A DNA stretch of 64,000 nt from contig JACVRA010000306.1 of assembly GCA_019828545.1 (NCBI GenBank), positions 2,303-66,302 of the forward strand. The letters run 5' to 3'. The notes beneath the pieces were generated by a model that was given only the letters and a program-made list of their open reading frames with translations, made no database searches and had not been told where the DNA came from. This document shows positions 18,897 through 33,337 of the stretch, one piece after another (the stretch's first letter is position 1; each line of letters begins with the position of its first letter). Both the position numbers and the translations under genes were made by a program. Source of the stretch: Paracamarosporium sp. OC-R06-R3. Taxonomy: Eukaryota > Ascomycota > Dothideomycetes > Pleosporales > Didymosphaeriaceae.

Positions 18897-21234
18897 ATCA
18901 TATTGATCGAACGCGATAGGTGGAGTTACTAAATTGATTAAAAGGATGTTGGCGGGAGGAACAGCTCGACTTTCAAGTGGTTTGTTTAGGAGATTGAAAA
19001 CGAACAGTATGACGGCCGCATAGGAATTGATTATGAAATAAAAAACACCGGCTTTCTATTCTATACTTTACGTTTTGTGGTTATTGGGGCTGTTCAACGT
19101 CTAAGGCGTGGTGAGGTTGCGGTGATTGTACTGTGATCTCCCGGTGCCTGCCTGGTGTGGAGATAACTTACTGCATTTAGAAATGCCTAGCGATGATGCG
19201 GCCTTTTATTAGAGGCGCAACCAACATGGGAGCTTATTCAGCTGTAATTATCAAAATGTAGTCAGTAAAGGCTGGGTTAGGCATTCGCCACTTCTCTGTC
19301 AGGCGAGGCTGATCATCCGCAGGGCGAGCCTGTAATTTCCGACTGTCGTAATTGGAGATTTTGATGTTCAACACGTCAAATGAGCGCTTCGATGATACTC
19401 AGCGAATGCCATGCATCTGATTGTCCTCATTGACGCAGGGTAAGCCGGTTTATCGGGTGTGGTTTGGTGTCTACAAACTTGGACCTTGCCAGGCGTTCAG
19501 AATGCAGGTGAAAATTGTGAGGGGGATTTCATTGTTCGAGACGATTCGGGCATCTGGAACCTGGAGGAGCAGAGAGTCGATCGTTGCCCGGCTTTTGCCA
19601 AAGCTTGGCTGCGACTAGCATGGGCTTTAACACGCCAAGCGGAGTTGGTGAGCTGACTACAGCGAAGATGCATCAGACCCTGCCGCATAGGCTTTTGCGA
19701 CCAGGGAAAATGGCTGACACTGGTAGATAAGAGAGCTGAGGAGGGCATAACATGCAAGTGAAGCTGTAAGAGGGGTGTAATCGATGCGAGACGGCGGGGC
19801 TCTCATGGCTAGCGCAGCTGACGACGACTTGTAGCGGAGGCGGGCGCCGTCGATGCTCGCACGTAGAGACTAAGCGTATGTCACAGAAAGCTGGCCGTGG
19901 TGCTGTTGCACAGCTCAGTGATGCGGGCACGGAAACGCGTGTCTCGCAACGGTGGAGCGATGCTCACAGTGGGATCGAGATGTTGACGAGTAGGATCCGA
20001 AAACGGACTGGAGCTGCAGCGTCTGACAGGATGCAGGATCTCGACGAAGGCCGTACTCGGTTCCCAGGGCGGAAGCGGCTGTTTCAGCGCGGGTGCGACG
20101 CCCGCAAGCACAAGTGTCTGGCAGGGAAGCGGACGGCGATGCTCAGAGCGGGTTGCAATGGTTTGCGACGTCACCGGCCAAAAAGAAGGCTGGTCGGGCG
20201 GCTGCGATTGACAGGTGCAGGTTGCAACGGCGCAGGCTGGAGGGGCGCCAATATTTGCTAGTCGCGGAAGTCGAGGTGATGGACGCTCAATGCATGCAGT
20301 GCATCCCGCGGCGGACGGCCAGACCAGACCAATGGAGGCCCGTCCGCGGCAGGATGGGCTTGCCACGGCGCGCTTTGTAAGGCCTGGGGCAAATCAGCGA
20401 CGGCGGCACGATACGCGGTGGTATGGCTGCTGGCTGGGTGGCGGCCTCTGCTGCGAACGTCGCAGGGGGGCTTCCGGTACGGCGCATCGCGGAGCCTGTC
20501 AGGGGTAGCCTCGCACCTGCTGGAAGCGGCCGCGCGACGGCAGCGCGCTCGACGACGTCAAGAGCGCGAGGAGCTGCCATTGCGTGCGCCTGTGCTGTGT
20601 GCTGTGGTGAGTGAGGGCCGTCGAGGGGGCTGCGGGATGGCGACGTGCGGGTGGCGGGGGCTCAGAGGCCCAGCTGGGCCCGGGGCGCCGCTGATAGGAG
20701 CGACAGACATGTGTGCGGTACGGCACAGCAAGCAGCTGGGTCGGCCGCAAACCCGCCCTCCACGGTACCGCAGGCACAGGCACAGGCACGCAGCAGCGCA
20801 GCGCAGCGCAGCGGACAGCAGGCCAGCGCCGTCGTCGTCGCCTCTCGCCGTCGCCATCTGCCTGGCCCTCGGCGCCGTGCAGAGATTGGGGCACGTTTAA
20901 ATTAGCGCCTCTCGGCAGCAGCGAGGCCTTGCCGCTATTCCACATCGGCGCGCAACCCTTATCCACTGCGGCCTGCCCATCCCTCCCTCTTCAATCCCAC
21001 GGCGTCCTGCCACTGTTTCGTCGTCCTACACGTCTGTGGGCCGTCTGTCGTTCGTTACCTCCACCAGCTCTGCGTGCTGCTGCCTCTCCTTGCCTCCCGA
21101 CACCGCGGCCGCGCACACAAAAGGCCGCTCCTAATACCACCCGCCGCAGACGACCTCGACGACGCCCGTCCGCCTGCCCCCTCGGATGCCCCAGTAGCTT
21201 CGCCCGCCGCACTTGCACAGGCAATCCCGCCACC
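18897..21234. other. Gene-free stretch, GC-rich in its second half
   Basis: From about 19.85 kb to 21.2 kb the sequence is visibly richer in G and C than its neighbours, so long frames are open on both strands by chance. Short tandem motifs occur near 20771-20813: CAGGCA units, then GCAGC units. The frame of the next gene is open upstream from its ATG to about 20713, but the extra residues are Arg/Pro/Ser-rich with no domain. It is best read as promoter and 5' leader of the DUF3405 gene. Confidence 0.45.
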
Positions 21235-23432
21235 ATGTCTTCGCGATTCAATCTCAAGACGCCCAAGATGTTTATCCGCACGCGCTACGAGAAGCTGCCT
21301 GGCGGCGACTCGCAGGGCTCGTCGCCGCTCTTCAGGTCCGGCACCTGGTCCAAGGGGCACCGCAGCCCCATGTGGGCGAACCGCCTGCAGCGTCCGCGCA
21401 TGTCCTTTGCGCGCATCGTCATGCTCGTCATCGTCACCATACTGCTCGTGTCCATGACCGTCACAGGCATCGTCAAGGGCCGCTGGAAGCACCACCACAA
21501 CAAGGGCGACGACCGGAAACTCTACCATTGGGAGCACTACCCCAGGTGAGCACATGCACCGTCTTCCATCACCGGCCTGCAGCTGACATGCATAGGTTAC
21601 GCGGTCTGTTCAATGGCGTGCGCACTCTTGTTCCCTACAGCGACTACGTGTCGGAACAAAATTTTGTAAAGTACTCGCAGAGCTCCAACCCCGAAGACAA
21701 CATCAAACAGAAGTGGCCTGTCATGTCCAAGGAGCACAAGGAACCGCCAATGGACCCCGTCCGCTTCAGCCCTTATCCCAAGTTTGATTCCAAGGAGTAC
21801 CTCAAGAACCACGAGGAAGTCCACACCTGCTTTCTTGACGAGGACGAGAAGGTGGATCTACCTGACATTTATGCTTATCCCGGTATCCCGCAAAACCAGA
21901 CTGCTCCCTTCTTCGGCTCGTACGAAGAACTCGGCCTGAATGACAAGGTCTGCTTCGATCGCTTCGGCCGCTTCGGCCCTTACGGATATTCTTACCCTCG
22001 CGAGCAAGGTGGCTTTGGTCTTGCTGACAAGTCGGAGAAGAACGGCGCAGACAAGATCTGGGGCACGGAGCCCAAGATCGACTACGGCAAGGTCAGCTGG
22101 GGAAAGGCCCAGAAGCGTTGCTACGAGAAGAACAAGGCTCGTTTCCTGAAGAACGTGACGCAAAGCGACAGCGACGAGACACACGTGCAGAAGAAAAAGG
22201 TTCCTCGCCATGCATACATCCTCCGCACGTGGACTGGTTACAAATACAGCGAACAGCAGATCCTCACCATCCGCGCCATGATCAACGAACTTGCGCTTAA
22301 GTCTGGCGGCGAGTACGACGTCCACTTTCTGCTCCATGTCAAGGACGACAGCATCCCCATCTGGTCCTCTGACGAATTCTACGAGAAGACCATTCGTGAC
22401 AATCTCCCCGAAGAGTTCTGGGGCATGGCTACGCTATGGTCCGAGCAGCAGATGCGCCTCTACTACCCTGAGCCATTCCCTAACAACGTCTACAACCACG
22501 CCAAGGCTCCTGTCCATTCCGTGTACCGCAGCGCTCATTTCCCTCTGCAATGGTTTTCTCAGGTGCATCCCGAGTACGACTTCTACTGGAACTGGGAAAT
22601 GGACCTCCGCTTGAGCGGTCACTACTGGGAATTTAACACCAAGGTTGGAGACTGGGCACGCAGACAGCCTCGCAAGGGCATGTGGGAACGCGCGTCTCGC
22701 TACTACATTCCTGAGCTTCATGGATCTTGGAAGAACTTCACCGACATGGTTGAGGAGGAGATGTACAACAGCGACGAGAAGCCGGTTTGGGGACCACCCA
22801 AGTTTGAGAACACCGGTATGCTCGAGAGCCCACCTGAGACTGAGCCTCCACGTACGTATCTGGCCGATGACTATCAGTGGGGTGTAGGTGAAGATGCAGA
22901 CTTGATCACCTTTAACCCAATCTTTGATCCGGCCAAGACAAACTGGGTGTTCCGTGACGATGTTTCCGGTTATGACCTCGAACTGCCGGAGCCACCACGG
23001 CGGTGCGCTATCATCACTGTATCCAGGTTGTCGAAACGCTTGCTCGATCTTATGCATCGCGAAACGTACCTCATGAGGCATCACATGTTCCCGGAGATGT
23101 GGCCTCCTACTGTCGCTTTCCACCATGGCCTGAAGGCTGTGTACGCACCTCACGCTGTCTATTTTGATCACAACTGGCCTCTCGAGTCGCTCGATGGCAC
23201 CTACAACCACCCACCCAAACCTACCGACAGTGTATTCGGATGGGGAGAGCACAACCAGCTCGGCAACAGCTTCTACTACAACGCCGGATTCTCCTCAGAA
23301 CTTTGGCGACGGTGGTTGGGAGGACGCGAGTACGACCAAGGAGGACCCGTTGAGGAAGAGAACGGTTCCGGCCGGCTGTGCCTCCGTCCAACACTGTTCC
23401 ATCCCGTCAAGCATGAGAACCTCAACATATGA
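21235..23432 (+). CDS. DUF3405 type II membrane protein (glycosyltransferase-like)
   Basis: Two exons, 21235-21545 and 21596-23432, with a 50-nt intron (GTGAGC donor, ATAG acceptor), giving 715 aa. A basic cytosolic N-terminus of about 60 residues is followed by one hydrophobic anchor (FARIVMLVIVTILLVSMTVTGIV, about residues 61-83) and a large lumenal part. The lumenal part carries hallmarks of the fungal DUF3405 family: RHAYILRTWTGYKY, YDVHFLLHVKD, the acidic YDFYWNWEMDLR and GHYWEF, and late HNWPLESLDGTYNHPP and FYYNAGFS. The topology and the DxD-like acidic motif fit a Golgi glycosyltransferase, but no activity is established that I know of. Chosen ATG context is CACCATGTC. The ATG follows the GC-rich leader. 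Confidence 0.9.
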
Positions 23433-27868: not shown

Positions 27869-28821
27869 CTACTTTGTCTCCGGTCGAGGGCCAACCATCT
27901 CAACTGACAATTGAGTAGGCCCATCTTGATCAACTGTCTCGATTGTAAATACCTGGGAGCGTTGTTTCACCTCATCCTCAGCGCCACCACGAAGGATCTT
28001 TTGCTTTTCCCTCTTATCTTCCGTCTTAACAGTCGAGGAAGAGAAGTGTTTCTTTCTAATAAGGATCCCACATATCATCACTACAACCCCCCAATCTTTA
28101 TCCTCATACATTACTGATGTGGAGTCTTGGTTGTTGTGCGACCAAGAGACATTAGGTCCAAGGGAAGCTATGCCAGCCACATCTATTGTTAGACCAATAC
28201 TGACTTCCGAGTTATCAGAGTGCAGGATGGCCATCCCGCACCGCTCAGTTTGGTACGTCTTTGTTATTATCCAAAGACCATGATCATTGAGCACATCTCC
28301 GTACCGCTCCAGTATTTTGCCTGCATTGCTCTTCACCCAGTTCAGGATGGGACGGTCATCGACGGTCATCGTGTGAACAATCGGCGATGCAGCAACCATA
28401 ACAGCGCCTTTTTCATGCCCGCGTTGGAGCTTGAATGTGACCGACAACTCAAGTCCTGGCGCTATCCTGCGCTGAAGAGTCAATGTTTGATGACTAGTCC
28501 AAGTCCCGGAGTAACTTACGGGCCACCCACACCAGGCTCGAAATTCCACTCTTGCATACGGCTTGAGACTTTAGGTCCCCACGATATACGGCCCGTATTT
28601 TGCTTTAGTTCGATGGCTTTATCAAGTTGGTTCCAGTCGTCACGCTGCAGCTGTTGTTCCTCGCGAAGCATGACGATCTCTTTCCAGGCTCCATCGGAAT
28701 CAAAATACCCGAACACGCCAGGTTCTAGATCTCGACTTGAGAATTTGTTCCATAAGGGCCAACCCTCGTGGTTCGATAATAAGGTCGTAAACAGTCTATC
28801 GTTCCTTTCTGCGTTTGTCAT
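27869..28821 (-). CDS. Fungal gasdermin-like pore-forming protein
   Basis: Two exons, 28520-28821 and 27869-28466. The 53-nt intron has a GTAAGT donor and CGCAG acceptor; the only competing acceptor five bases upstream gives an immediate stop. The product is 299 aa, within the 250-300 aa usual for fungal gasdermins (RCD-1 of Neurospora, HET-Q1 of Podospora). Family-like features are the N-terminal helix NDRLFTTLL, then LEPGVFGYFDSDGAW (residues 32-46), SWGPKVSS (80-87), and a middle region with HGLWIITKTY (163-172) and alternating strands around SIGLTIDVAG. A hydrophobic strand DWGVVVMICGILIRKK (225-240) precedes a charged segment rich in Lys, Glu and Asp (245-270) and a short C-terminal tail. 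In characterised members a protease removes such a tail and the N-terminal part oligomerises into membrane pores that kill the cell. It is divergent from the caspase-HET gene. Assignment is from motif memory. Confidence 0.8.
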
Positions 28822-29278
28822 GGTGGGTGTTAAAAGCAAAGAAATTAGAGTGTTACGTAGCTAAGAGTAAACTTGTAACTGCTAGATGACGGGCGCTTCG
28901 ATTCGGTGCGTGAGAGCTGAATAGAGAAGGCAGCAATCTCAGCTCTGCGGGGCATGCGTGAGGCTAACTACGTTGGCGACAATACAGCCGGTTAGGTGTG
29001 AAGGCTGCAGGAAAAGCAACGATAGAGAAACCTTATTCGCTCGGCTAGTCGTACAAGAGCCCTCAATGAAATGTAATCTGACAGGCTAGTTGGTCTTCGC
29101 AAAAAGCTTCTAAGACTGAGCGAGTTGCAGCTGCCTAGCTTTGATTTTCGCGAGAAAGTCTGTTCGTACCAGAAGCTGTACTACTGCTCCACTTGGGGAT
29201 GTTCTTTTCGGTGGAATCTTGCACGATTCTTGCCCTGCCTGACTTAATTCGATAGTGCGAAACCACTGGATCTCTAAG
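28822..29278. promoter_or_regulatory. Shared intergenic region of the gasdermin and caspase-HET genes
   Basis: This 457-bp gap separates the two start codons (ATG at 28821 on the minus strand, ATG at 29279 on the plus strand). No other supported frame lies in it. Head-to-head layout with one short gap suggests joint regulation. No clear TATA box or recognisable operator was seen. Confidence 0.5.
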
Positions 29279-32200
29279 ATGTTATCCAGCAATACAATTG
29301 GGAGCTCAGAGCTCACCGCAGACGTCGAATCATTCAATTTACTATCACGCTCGACTACGCCCTTCTCTCAAGCAACCACTCGTCAGTCACATTTCCTCCC
29401 TTAGATATTAAGCTGATTATATTACAACGGTTCAGAACCCGCTGACGATCCGGATCCTTGCGATAACCCTTGCAAACACCATCCATACCGACCACGTGAA
29501 GCACCCCATGGCAAAAGCTTAGAAAGGTTTTTCGCAGATCTAGAAAAGACACTGAAAAGAGTCTATCCGCGCTCACCAGGGACTTTTCGGGTCTACGACC
29601 GAGCACATATTTTGTTCTTACGATGGGAAGATGACGACTTGAACACTAAGGTAGAGATTGACGAGCTAGAAACGATTTTCAAAGCATTGCATTTGACAAA
29701 GGATCCGAAGAATCACACGTCTAAGACATTCTGCATTCCCTCAGATGATTTTCAGGACGAAATGGAGCAAACAATCATCAACGCAAAATATAATCATACA
29801 AAGAAAGCATCAGACTTGCTTGTCATATACTATGGAGGCCATGCAAGAATGGACGAATCCCAACGATGTATATGGTATCCCTCGCTGGACATTCCTGATG
29901 GATTTTTTGACATGCCTGAGCTAGATTGGACAAGCCTTCAAGATACTTTCTACTCACGAGAAGCTCACGTTGTCTTCATTCTTGATAGTTGCCATGCAGG
30001 ATCTGCAGCTCGCCAAACTAGGTATACCTCCAATTGGAAAGGGGTGAAAGAGTTGGTTGCTGCGTGCGGGAAAAATGAGCGCACCGAAGCAGTCAACGAC
30101 AATTCGTTCACAAGGGCCCTCATTCAGGAGCTGAGAGAGTTTCAAAGAAGTCAAGAGCATTGCACCATCAGAAAAATTATTTCTAACCTAGTAACCAAGA
30201 GCTATGGCTTGCGCAATGCTCCTCTCCATATAGGCTTGTCGGACAAAGCTAACACTTCCGAGACGTGGCAGATTGTTTTCCGCGGTCAGGGATCTTCTCT
30301 AATGGCTGGGAAAATGGCTGCTCGAGGCCCTTCAGCATCTGACACACGTGTTTTGCTATCACTTCGCCTTCACAATCCCCCTGATCCTTCAGACATTTCT
30401 GATTGGGACCGCTGGCTCAAACTCCAGGCACCGAAAAGCGTTGCAGATATCAAAATGACATGCGTTGGGCTTGAAGGCTCGTTTGTCCACGGATCTACGT
30501 TGATACTTCTTTCGCTGCCAGAGATCCTTTGGAAGGAACTACCGAAATATCCGGAATACAAGTTCGTCGACTATGTGAACTCCGATAACCTCCTCATACC
30601 AAGGCTTGCGCATCAGCTGCATACACCTCAAAATATGGTAGATGTTGCAGTTCAGACAGAGGGACTACTCCCATCTCGTGACATTGGAAAAGAACAGATG
30701 GCACAAGGATCAAACGTTCATTCTTGGCTCGAAGGCCAGACTCAGAACGTAGATACGATGCCACTTCCTGAAAACGTGAAGGTAGCACCCAATACTGGAA
30801 GTCAAGTTCCAGCAATATTCATCCCTCAGGACGGAGATGCAATATCCACTACGGAGACTGAGATTTCTGCTACTTTCAGTCATTCTACATCAGGAACACG
30901 TTCAACTACCATAACAAAACCCATGTTGAACTCGGTGTTGCAGAAACTACCAGACTTACCACCAAAGCATACCTCAGACTTCGACCGATTAGAGACCTTT
31001 CCTAGGTTTGATGAATATAAGTATACCCGGCTTGCTGATAAAATGTACAACATTCGACTCCTCAAGATTTATGCTGGTCGTCCCGACAACCCGGAAATTG
31101 AATGCAAACTCTTTGAGGCTATACTTGACGCTGAGAAGGGCGTGCGAAAGTTCTTAACCTCGTCCTCAGACAGCTCTACTAATAGGCCGCAAGCACAGCG
31201 AATTTCTTACCAAACCTTGTCATGGGATGAAATTGGTCTTCTACGGGATTCTGTCTACATCAGAATAAGGAAAAAAAACCAAATATGGCATCATCGTATC
31301 CCAAAAGATCTCGGCGTTGCTCTTAAGCACGTCAGAAGACAGACCGAAGACGTCATCCTCTGGGTCAATGAAATTTGTGTGGATCAGCAAAATATTGACG
31401 AGAGAAACAGCCAAGCAGCTATGTTGCGACCTATCCTTGGCGGAGCCATCGGGTTGTTCGCATGGTTGGGTGAAGAGAACAATAACAGCTCACTTGCCAT
31501 CCAGCTCATTCAGGATAATGTCAAGAGCCTAGTCAACATAGACAAAGTCCTCTCGGACATCGAAAATGCTCCGCAGTTTGCAGCACTTGCTGAGTTGATG
31601 CAGCGTCCTTGGTTCACCCGAAGAAGAAGCGTTTCGGAGATTGTACTCAGCCGTAGGGCGGAGCTCCTTTGCGGGAAGCATATAATTATCTGGAAAGACT
31701 TTGCCGTCACTGTGGAGCTTTTTGTGGAAGTGGAAACGGCAACACATCGACTTTCCGAAATTATAAAGAGAGATCGAACATCAATGTATGATTTGCACTG
31801 GACAGAGTCAATTTCTCAGCTTGGTGCCTCACTTTTGGTGGATGTCACAAACCGTTTCCATAACACTCGGACAGTCAACCGGAACCGTCGACACTTACAG
31901 AGTCTGGAAAGCTTAGCCACTAATCTTGCGATGTTCCGGTCTGGTGAACCGCATGATTGCATCTATCCGCTTGTCCACATCGCCGATGACGTGCAACCTG
32001 TGCAGCCAGATTGGTATCACTCTCGGTCATTGCGGGCCAAGGAGCTGGCATTCCGCTTTGTCACCTCATTCGCGTCTTACAAAGTTCGACCATTCATGAT
32101 TGACTACAAGGAACCTTACGTGGACACCTGCAAACGATTTGTAGAATCTTCAATCCTCCAGCAATTGGTGAATCGGTCAGGAGCCTATCCGCTAGATGTT

Positions 32201-33337
32201 ATATGTCGGCCTTGGGCACAATCTTGGCGTCATGGGAAGCTTGACGAGCTTCAGGTAGAGAATGACCTGGAAGAACATTTTAAAGGTCAGATCAATGCCT
32301 CTTCCAAAATGACTTCCCTGTCAACGAATATCGAAAGCAAGTGGAAACATTTGTTGAAGCGACCACACCAGCCAATGCATCTACCTTCGTGGGTGGCCAC
32401 CGTTGACACCGCACCATTCGGCCTTTTCAACGCACCGGGCAGCCAATTCATCAAAGTTAGTAGGAAGAATGCTGATCCCTTAGTGGGCCAATATCCGGAG
32501 AGCAATAATTCTTACAACGCCAGCAAGGGTCAGGAATTAACTTGTTTTCAGTTTTGGAAGAGGCCCAACTTAGGTCATTTCAGCCTTCACGTAGAGGGGT
32601 TTGTGTGTGACGAAGTTGACATGATCTCTCATGCTTCCCAAAATGGTGCCTTACCGGTATCGTGGCTGCAACTCGGGAATTGGTATAAATCTGGAGGAAG
32701 CCTTGACGTCCTGGACAGTCCTCCTGACGAACTCTGGCGCACCCTAGTTGCGGATAGGGGAAACCATGGGAAAAAGCCTCCAGCGTACTATCCTCGCGCC
32801 TGTACAGAGGCAGTCAGACGAGGCGGACTTTTGAGTGGTAGTGTAGACACTAACCACCTAATCTACGAAGAGCGTAATACAATTGTAGCAGAATTCTGCC
32901 GGCGGATGCAAGCTGTTATTTGGAATCGCGCACTCATACGAACCAAGAAAGGCCGGTTAGGATTAGTGTCTTCCGATGTTAGGCAAGGAGATCTAGTATG
33001 TGTGCTTTGGGGCTGCTCCGTACCAGTGATCATGAGAAGAAAGCGGAAGTCATTCGAAGAAGTGAAGGAGGAGGAGTTCGAAGATCGCTTTGAGTTATTC
33101 AAAAGAGTGCTGAAACGCAAAGAGGAGAGATACATGTATACCGAGATGCTAAATCACTTGTGGGGATTCGACTACGAACTTCCAGTTTGGGAGCGGATTC
33201 AATTTGAAGCGGGTAAAAGCGCCCAAGAATTGGTACATTACTCACTTCTAGGAGATGCATACATACATGGTATCATGGATGGCGAAGCGATAGATCAAGA
33301 GATGATTCTCAAGCCAGATATTTTCGAGATTAGATGA
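29279..33337 (+). CDS. Caspase-like protease fused to a HET domain
   Basis: Two exons, 29279-29381 and 29436-33337, joined by a 54-nt intron (GTCAGT donor, TTCAG acceptor), giving 1334 aa. The main frame has no ATG before 29632, so this small first exon is needed to start it. Residues 75-330 form a caspase-like (clan CD) domain with the fungal signature LFLRWEDDDL. A strand ends in VIYYGGHA, with the catalytic-type His at about 170. Another strand ends in FILDSCHAG, with the catalytic-type Cys at about 220. A Ser/Thr-rich linker follows. The HET domain spans about 626-800: YQTLSW, LWVNEICVDQQNIDER, FAWLGEE, RPWFTRR and LLCGKHIIIW. The C-terminus carries the usual extension of long HET proteins (QGDLVCVLWGCSVPVIMRR and YIHGIMDGEA). 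HET domains trigger incompatibility cell death. Next to a gasdermin, the protease half is the likely activator. Confidence 0.85.

Follow-up and report, generated by a model that had tools for sequence, protein, structure and literature searches.

The window, that is, the whole stretch of 64,000 nt that was analysed, lies on contig C137 of a 43-Mb assembly of 337 contigs. Its genes are those of a filamentous ascomycete, probably one of the Pleosporales, and among the named protein matches are Kalmusia, Paraphaeosphaeria, Parastagonospora, Didymosphaeria and Periconia. Two of these genes, encoding proteins of 299 and 1334 amino acids (aa), are arranged head to head. The following features were assigned to the pair:

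27869..28466, minus strand: exon 2 of the gasdermin-like gene, running to the stop codon and matching itself in the genome
27959..28048, minus strand: basic linker, residues 241-270 (K248, K252, R253, K255, K257, R260, K268 and R270)
28004..28381, minus strand: bacterial-gasdermin-like stretch, residues 130-255 (PDB 7n52 and 9v2s, Runella)
28467..28519, minus strand: intron of the gasdermin-like gene, 53 nt, GTAAGT...TTCAGCGCAG
28520..28821, minus strand: exon 1 of the gasdermin-like gene, residues 1-100 plus two bases of codon 101, with the ATG at 28821
28822..29278, no strand: intergenic stretch between both ATGs, 457 bp
29279..29381, plus strand: proposed exon 1 of the caspase-HET gene, uncertain and based on splice logic only
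29436..33337, plus strand: exon 2 of the caspase-HET gene, an open frame to the stop codon
29594..30286, plus strand: caspase-like (C14-type) domain, residues ~88-318
30332..30625, plus strand: second conserved block, residues ~334-431, behind the caspase domain and conserved in the relative P0001
31271..31624, plus strand: HET domain (PF06985), degenerate, 54.5 bits (Pfam cut-off 22.5)

The small gene consists of 299 codons in a two-exon, one-intron model on the minus strand, and the GTAAGT donor of its intron was present in just one of the open models tried. The large gene consists of 1334 codons in two exons on the plus strand, separated by a 54-nt intron. Its 5' exon was sought from seven upstream ATGs, each with one intron of 40-199 nt; an open model was obtained from 29279 alone, with 10 alternative splice choices. 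Because the frame of the large gene is open throughout, it is no obvious pseudogene. The first-pass annotation had placed the two genes head to head with 457 bp between their ATGs and had assigned a His/Cys caspase-type dyad and a HET domain to the 1334-aa protein. The arrangement agrees with the gene models (splice logic, in the case of the large 5' exon), the dyad is present as H170 and C220, and PF06985 was matched well above its cut-off. The 457-bp stretch may serve as a shared promoter.

The pair is flanked by two NmrA-like genes (PF05368; 26706-27641 and 33897-34862), which lie on the same strand and share 40% identity. They are perhaps tandem duplicates separated by insertion of the pair. 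The GC content of the two genes, introns included, was 0.48 and 0.47, compared with 0.57 and 0.53 in the NmrA-like neighbours. Elsewhere in the window, the most GC-rich 2 kb (20001-22000) had a GC content of 0.634, and a gene encoding a DUF3405 protein (21213-23432, 659 bits) starts inside it.

In the N-terminal domain of the 1334-aa protein, H170 lies in YYGGH (codon at 29840) and C220 in ILDSCHAG (codon at 29990), with D218 two residues ahead of C220. Peptidase_C14 matched this protein with 17.5 bits (E 0.0035), under the Pfam cut-off of 21.4; because this is below the gathering score, the claim is that the domain works like a caspase and not that it is a member of the Pfam family. A fold search with a low-confidence model of the caspase part (pLDDT 40.3) listed caspases, with TM-scores of 0.32-0.43 in the top rows, and the predicted caspase fold of the N-terminal domain is well supported. 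An Asp also stands two residues before the catalytic Cys in TbMCA2 (Asp211, according to the accessible text of PMC4357240; Cys213, from the title of 4afr), which makes metacaspase-like cleavage after Lys/Arg likely.

Other protease families were also considered. Neither CHAT nor S8 (PF00082) matched the large protein at E<=1, and no match of PF00082 or PF12770 was reported on contig C137. A CHAT protease was ruled out on this basis.

The large protein does fuse a caspase part to a HET part, and at least one further sequence, P0001, shares this layout; the caspase part of P0001 is 56% identical and has the same His/Cys dyad. Few caspase-like genes were found in the genome. The second conserved block has a counterpart behind a caspase-like paralogue on contig C203; the match covers residues 241-338 of the 1241-aa ORF of the large gene that served as the query. 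This paralogue (L012:155-1078) has Arg in place of the catalytic His (YYGGRG) and keeps the Cys, and it is a probable pseudo-caspase.

The identity of the 299-aa protein is the weakest link of the whole reading, and sequence comparisons suggest that it is probably a gasdermin. A phmmer search against 177,635 distinct PDB sequences returned three matches at E<=10, the best two of which were the bacterial gasdermins 7n52 (E 0.05) and 9v2s (E 0.064); these are nearly identical proteins and therefore count effectively as one match. When the Runella zeae gasdermin and a close relative were aligned to the small protein with hhalign, the score was 31.0 (P 8e-4), and the maximum among 200 shuffles was 24.3; these two bacterial gasdermins scored 34.4 against a profile of 66 fungal gasdermins. 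When the 43-Mb genome was searched with the Runella zeae gasdermin behind 7n52, the small gene was the lone reported match (E 0.196); the prefilter of this search let through one candidate, and the genome's true gasdermins were missed. The two proteins share 23% identity across about 120 residues. Because this query was chosen after the small protein had matched it, the match is reciprocal and not independent.

In addition, the small protein was compared by phmmer with 719 sequences, comprising gasdermins, HET fragments and ORFs, from which decoy ORFs carrying the motifs of the query gene, the Runella gasdermin or the gasdermin on contig C81 had been removed. A score was reported for 452 of the 719, and gasdermins took the top four places and seven of the best 10. 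With a true gasdermin of this genome (L018) as the control query, the two bacterial gasdermins ranked just 18th and 28th in the same set, which shows how coarse scores from single sequences are.

The first-pass annotation had called the 299-aa protein a gasdermin on account of two supposed fungal hallmarks, LEPGVFGYFDSDG and SWGPKVSS. The weak, consistent similarity to bacterial gasdermins speaks for the assignment, but the quoted motifs do not. An alignment of 20 of the 66 fungal gasdermins shows YMVTGxKIARGA and SSDFVFAYRL as family hallmarks instead, and both of these signatures are absent, as judged by eye, from the 299-aa protein. The proposed HMM check likewise went against the assignment, as the protein had no match to any Pfam, PADLOC or NCBIfam family. 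The profile of the 66 fungal gasdermins gave it 2.3 bits, with one of 500 shuffles scoring higher (3.6), and hhalign gave 1.5%; by this profile and by both signatures, the protein falls outside the RCD-1/HET-Q1 family. Moreover, no similarity was found between the small protein and the C81 gasdermin, nor with the other four gasdermins of the genome (best E 0.089 in the set of four), and the PADLOC bGSDM profile did not find the small gene in the genome.

Exon 2 alone, modelled from the single sequence with AlphaFold, reached a pLDDT of 41.9, and Foldseek returned no matches at E<=0.001 and no gasdermin among the 50 listed. No homologues of the small protein were found at E<=0.001 among 393 word-sharing candidates, and the search for paralogues in the genome returned the gene itself alone. 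A DNA pattern of the PGxxG(Y/F)FD type occurred in two places, the small gene and contig C314 (in a frame with a stop), compared with one place for the reversed control pattern; this motif was absent near the caspase-like paralogues (C203, 28000-43079; C305, 1-9000).

Five loci of canonical fungal gasdermins were counted elsewhere in the genome, on contigs C81 (L018/L024, 152648-154733), C49 (L041), C229 (L042), C104 (L043) and C209 (L044); two rows on C209 were joined, and a weak sixth match on C330 (E 0.04, 47 residues, one stop) was omitted. The C81 gasdermin was reached through the PADLOC bGSDM profile (22.5 bits), and 65 proteins of its family were found. A profile of 20 of these matched RCD-1-1 (E 4e-29), RCD-1-2 and HET-Q1 (E 1.9e-11) in the PDB, and this is therefore the canonical fungal gasdermin family. 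A further, weak match of the bGSDM profile (17.2 bits, E 0.054) lies within a 1214-aa open frame on contig C131 (L019/L026, 31994-32167).

At all five canonical loci, a match to an S8 protease lies within about 0.6 kb of the gasdermin, tail to tail. Together, the five loci form a textbook collection of pairs of the HET-Q1/HET-Q2 kind within a single genome. The pairing logic put forward by the first-pass annotation, in which gasdermin genes sit beside protease genes, fits the literature as well as these loci. Since all five pairs are convergent and of the S8 type, the arrangement of the window pair is distinct within this genome: it differs from the canonical pairs in its caspase-like protease, its HET fusion, its divergent orientation and its non-canonical small protein.

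It is possible, though doubtful, that the small protein is some other fast-evolving fungal protein, for example a guard target or regulator, and that the caspase-HET protein kills alone or acts on another substrate, as part of a different module. Such a protein would fit the three libraries without a family match, the lack of signal from the true fungal gasdermin family, the uninformative model of exon 2 and the failure to find homologues among the 393 candidates. It would be harder to reconcile with the bacterial gasdermins as the best two PDB matches, with gasdermins as the top four of 719 sequences and with the reciprocal match of the Runella gasdermin, lone in the whole genome; moreover, the gene adjoins one for a caspase-type protease, where gasdermins are expected.

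The HET part of the large protein was compared with its family by means of 120 homologues, listed and used out of 160 matches. Among these 120, 185 columns were at least 95% conserved, spanning the HET domain and the region behind it. The window protein retains 156 of the 185 (84.3%), and 16 of its 29 changes fall at residues 628-793. The listed relatives, each judged on its own leave-one-out columns, keep 89.9% at the lowest and 99.4% at the median, so that the window protein keeps a smaller share than each of the 120, a contrast that is inflated by the mutual resemblance of the listed homologues, though the nearest relative, P0001, is normal; the full set of family residues is not present in the window protein. 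The residues gone include one Trp in SWxWG, the Asp in LWIDAxCINQ, and both the Trp and the Gln in RRWVVQE, the Glu of which is retained. P0001 is not among the lowest eight of the 120 in residue retention, and its HET domain scores 101.4 bits, compared with 54.5 bits for the window protein. The HET-family proteins share the C-terminal two thirds with the window protein, whereas 119 of the 120 listed have no match to its caspase part.

The loss of conserved residues suggests, short of proof, that HET is the regulatory rather than the killing half of the large protein. Meanwhile, the label of a HET allorecognition sensor, used in the first-pass annotation, goes beyond the evidence, given the residues lost from the HET part. 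Conversely, HET might be the main death effector, with the caspase-like domain as a self-processing switch and the gasdermin-like neighbour as an optional second effector. Cell death on overexpression of HET domains is reported (in the available sections of PMC12881547), and the HET part of the related P0001 is better kept; in the window protein, however, the share of conserved columns lies below that of each listed relative and the SWxWG, LWIDAxCINQ and RRWVVQE residues named above are lost, and we regard this reading as quite improbable. It is very improbable that the two are unrelated, fast-evolving genes brought together by chance in a low-GC spot between the NmrA-like genes: their GC content is under that of the neighbours, as for any variable spot, but the lone reported genome match of a bacterial gasdermin sits 457 bp from one of the few caspase-like genes found, and protease neighbours are the rule for gasdermins.

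We lean slightly towards a death module of two genes, of the known fungal "protease + gasdermin" type, built from unusual parts and controlled by HET. The 299-aa protein would be a divergent gasdermin that a short segment at its C-terminus (about residues 255-299) keeps inactive, and the 1334-aa protein would be its activator. Once the HET region was triggered, the metacaspase-like domain would cut the basic linker after Lys/Arg, and the pore-forming part of the small protein would be freed. Cleavage of the linker by the large protein is proposed because residues 241-270 are rich in Lys/Arg and because the tail would have a mass like that of HET-Q1; a cut after residue 252, 253, 255 or 257 would release a tail with a computed mass of 4.6-5.3 kDa, and residues 241-270 are accordingly designated the proposed cleavage region. 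The HET region, from which several conserved residues are gone, would act as the sensing or regulatory half, and the trigger might be allorecognition or a virus. We infer cleavage, its P1 preference, pore formation, the role of HET as regulator and the trigger, that is, all steps beyond a caspase-like domain with an intact dyad.

A bolder version, which we consider unlikely, is that the small protein represents a second lineage of fungal gasdermins, nearer to the bacterial ones than to RCD-1/HET-Q1 and with caspase-fold activators as in bacteria. HET would then have been captured and turned from killer to sensor, so that allorecognition or viral sensing could drive pyroptosis-like death via a single protein.

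If the two-gene module is real, HET and gasdermin, two large families of fungal self/non-self death genes that the available part of PMC10197012 lists as separate, partly intertwining ones, would be brought together with a caspase-fold protease in a single unit of two genes. The pair would also offer a small, testable fungal parallel to caspase-gasdermin pyroptosis, and fungal gasdermins would be more diverse than the RCD-1/HET-Q1 family detected by profiles. A search rule is suggested, namely to look for ~300-aa orphans that lie beside caspase-fold genes and match bacterial gasdermins.

According to the accessible portions of PMC10197012, PMC12881547 and PMC10989679, ~1900 gasdermins occur in 400 fungal genomes. 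For ~80% of them, a protease gene lies in the same cluster, of the S8 type for ~63% and of the CHAT type for ~19%, and some of these proteases are parts of NLRs. The protease partners named in these portions carry repeat domains, NLRs or kinase-like domains, and HET is not among them. In the accessible part of PMC1325252, HET is joined to NACHT, WD repeats, ankyrin, coiled coil or LRR, and not to a caspase. No description of a caspase/C14-HET-gasdermin layout appeared among the matches listed in the open-licence literature, seen in part; the tables of the primary survey, Clave et al. 2022, may include one.

Among known systems, RCD-1 of Neurospora crassa is a fungal gasdermin that governs allorecognition death. 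It is not under the control of proteolytic cleavage, as far as the available text of PMC12881547 goes, and the small protein of the window has no match to the RCD-1/HET-Q1 profile. The small protein finds its best sequence match in the bacterial gasdermin of Runella. In Runella zeae, this gasdermin immediately follows a 324-aa ORF that matches COR-B and, weakly, CHAT (E 0.21; L016:156-1941), in an apparent protease-gasdermin operon; this protease-like ORF shows no HET, unlike the window protein. In the CHAT systems, a caspase-related cysteine protease in a large protein is tied to gasdermin death or heterokaryon incompatibility. In the accessible text of PMC12881547, a gasdermin of P. anserina has a TPR-containing CHAT protease as its activator, and in that of PMC11138114, the gasdermin link of the hetB CHAT protein of Aspergillus fumigatus is merely suggested. 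The window protein differs from these in having no CHAT match at E<=1 and HET as the partner.

The likeness is also seen with HET-Q1/HET-Q2 of Podospora anserina and the Q2-like clusters, in which, by the available parts of PMC10197012, PMC12881547 and PMC10989679, a short-tailed pore former of ~280-300 aa neighbours a protease gene, as the candidate pore former does here. A protease-like gene lies 457 bp off, and the gasdermin side of this candidate adjacency rests on the identity of the small protein. Additionally, the predicted tail of the small protein resembles the ~5 kDa lost by HET-Q1 (accessible text of PMC12881547). The differences lie in the protease, which is S8 or CHAT in HET-Q2 and Q2-like proteins and caspase-like, of the C14 type, in the window; in its partner domains, which are WD40/ANK/TPR repeats or an NLR in the Q2-like proteins and HET in the window; in orientation, the S8 pairs of this genome being tail to tail and the window pair head to head; and in the small protein, which lies outside the sequence family to which HET-Q1 belongs. 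The window pair probably belongs, as an unusual case, to the known protease-gasdermin suicide pairs of fungi.
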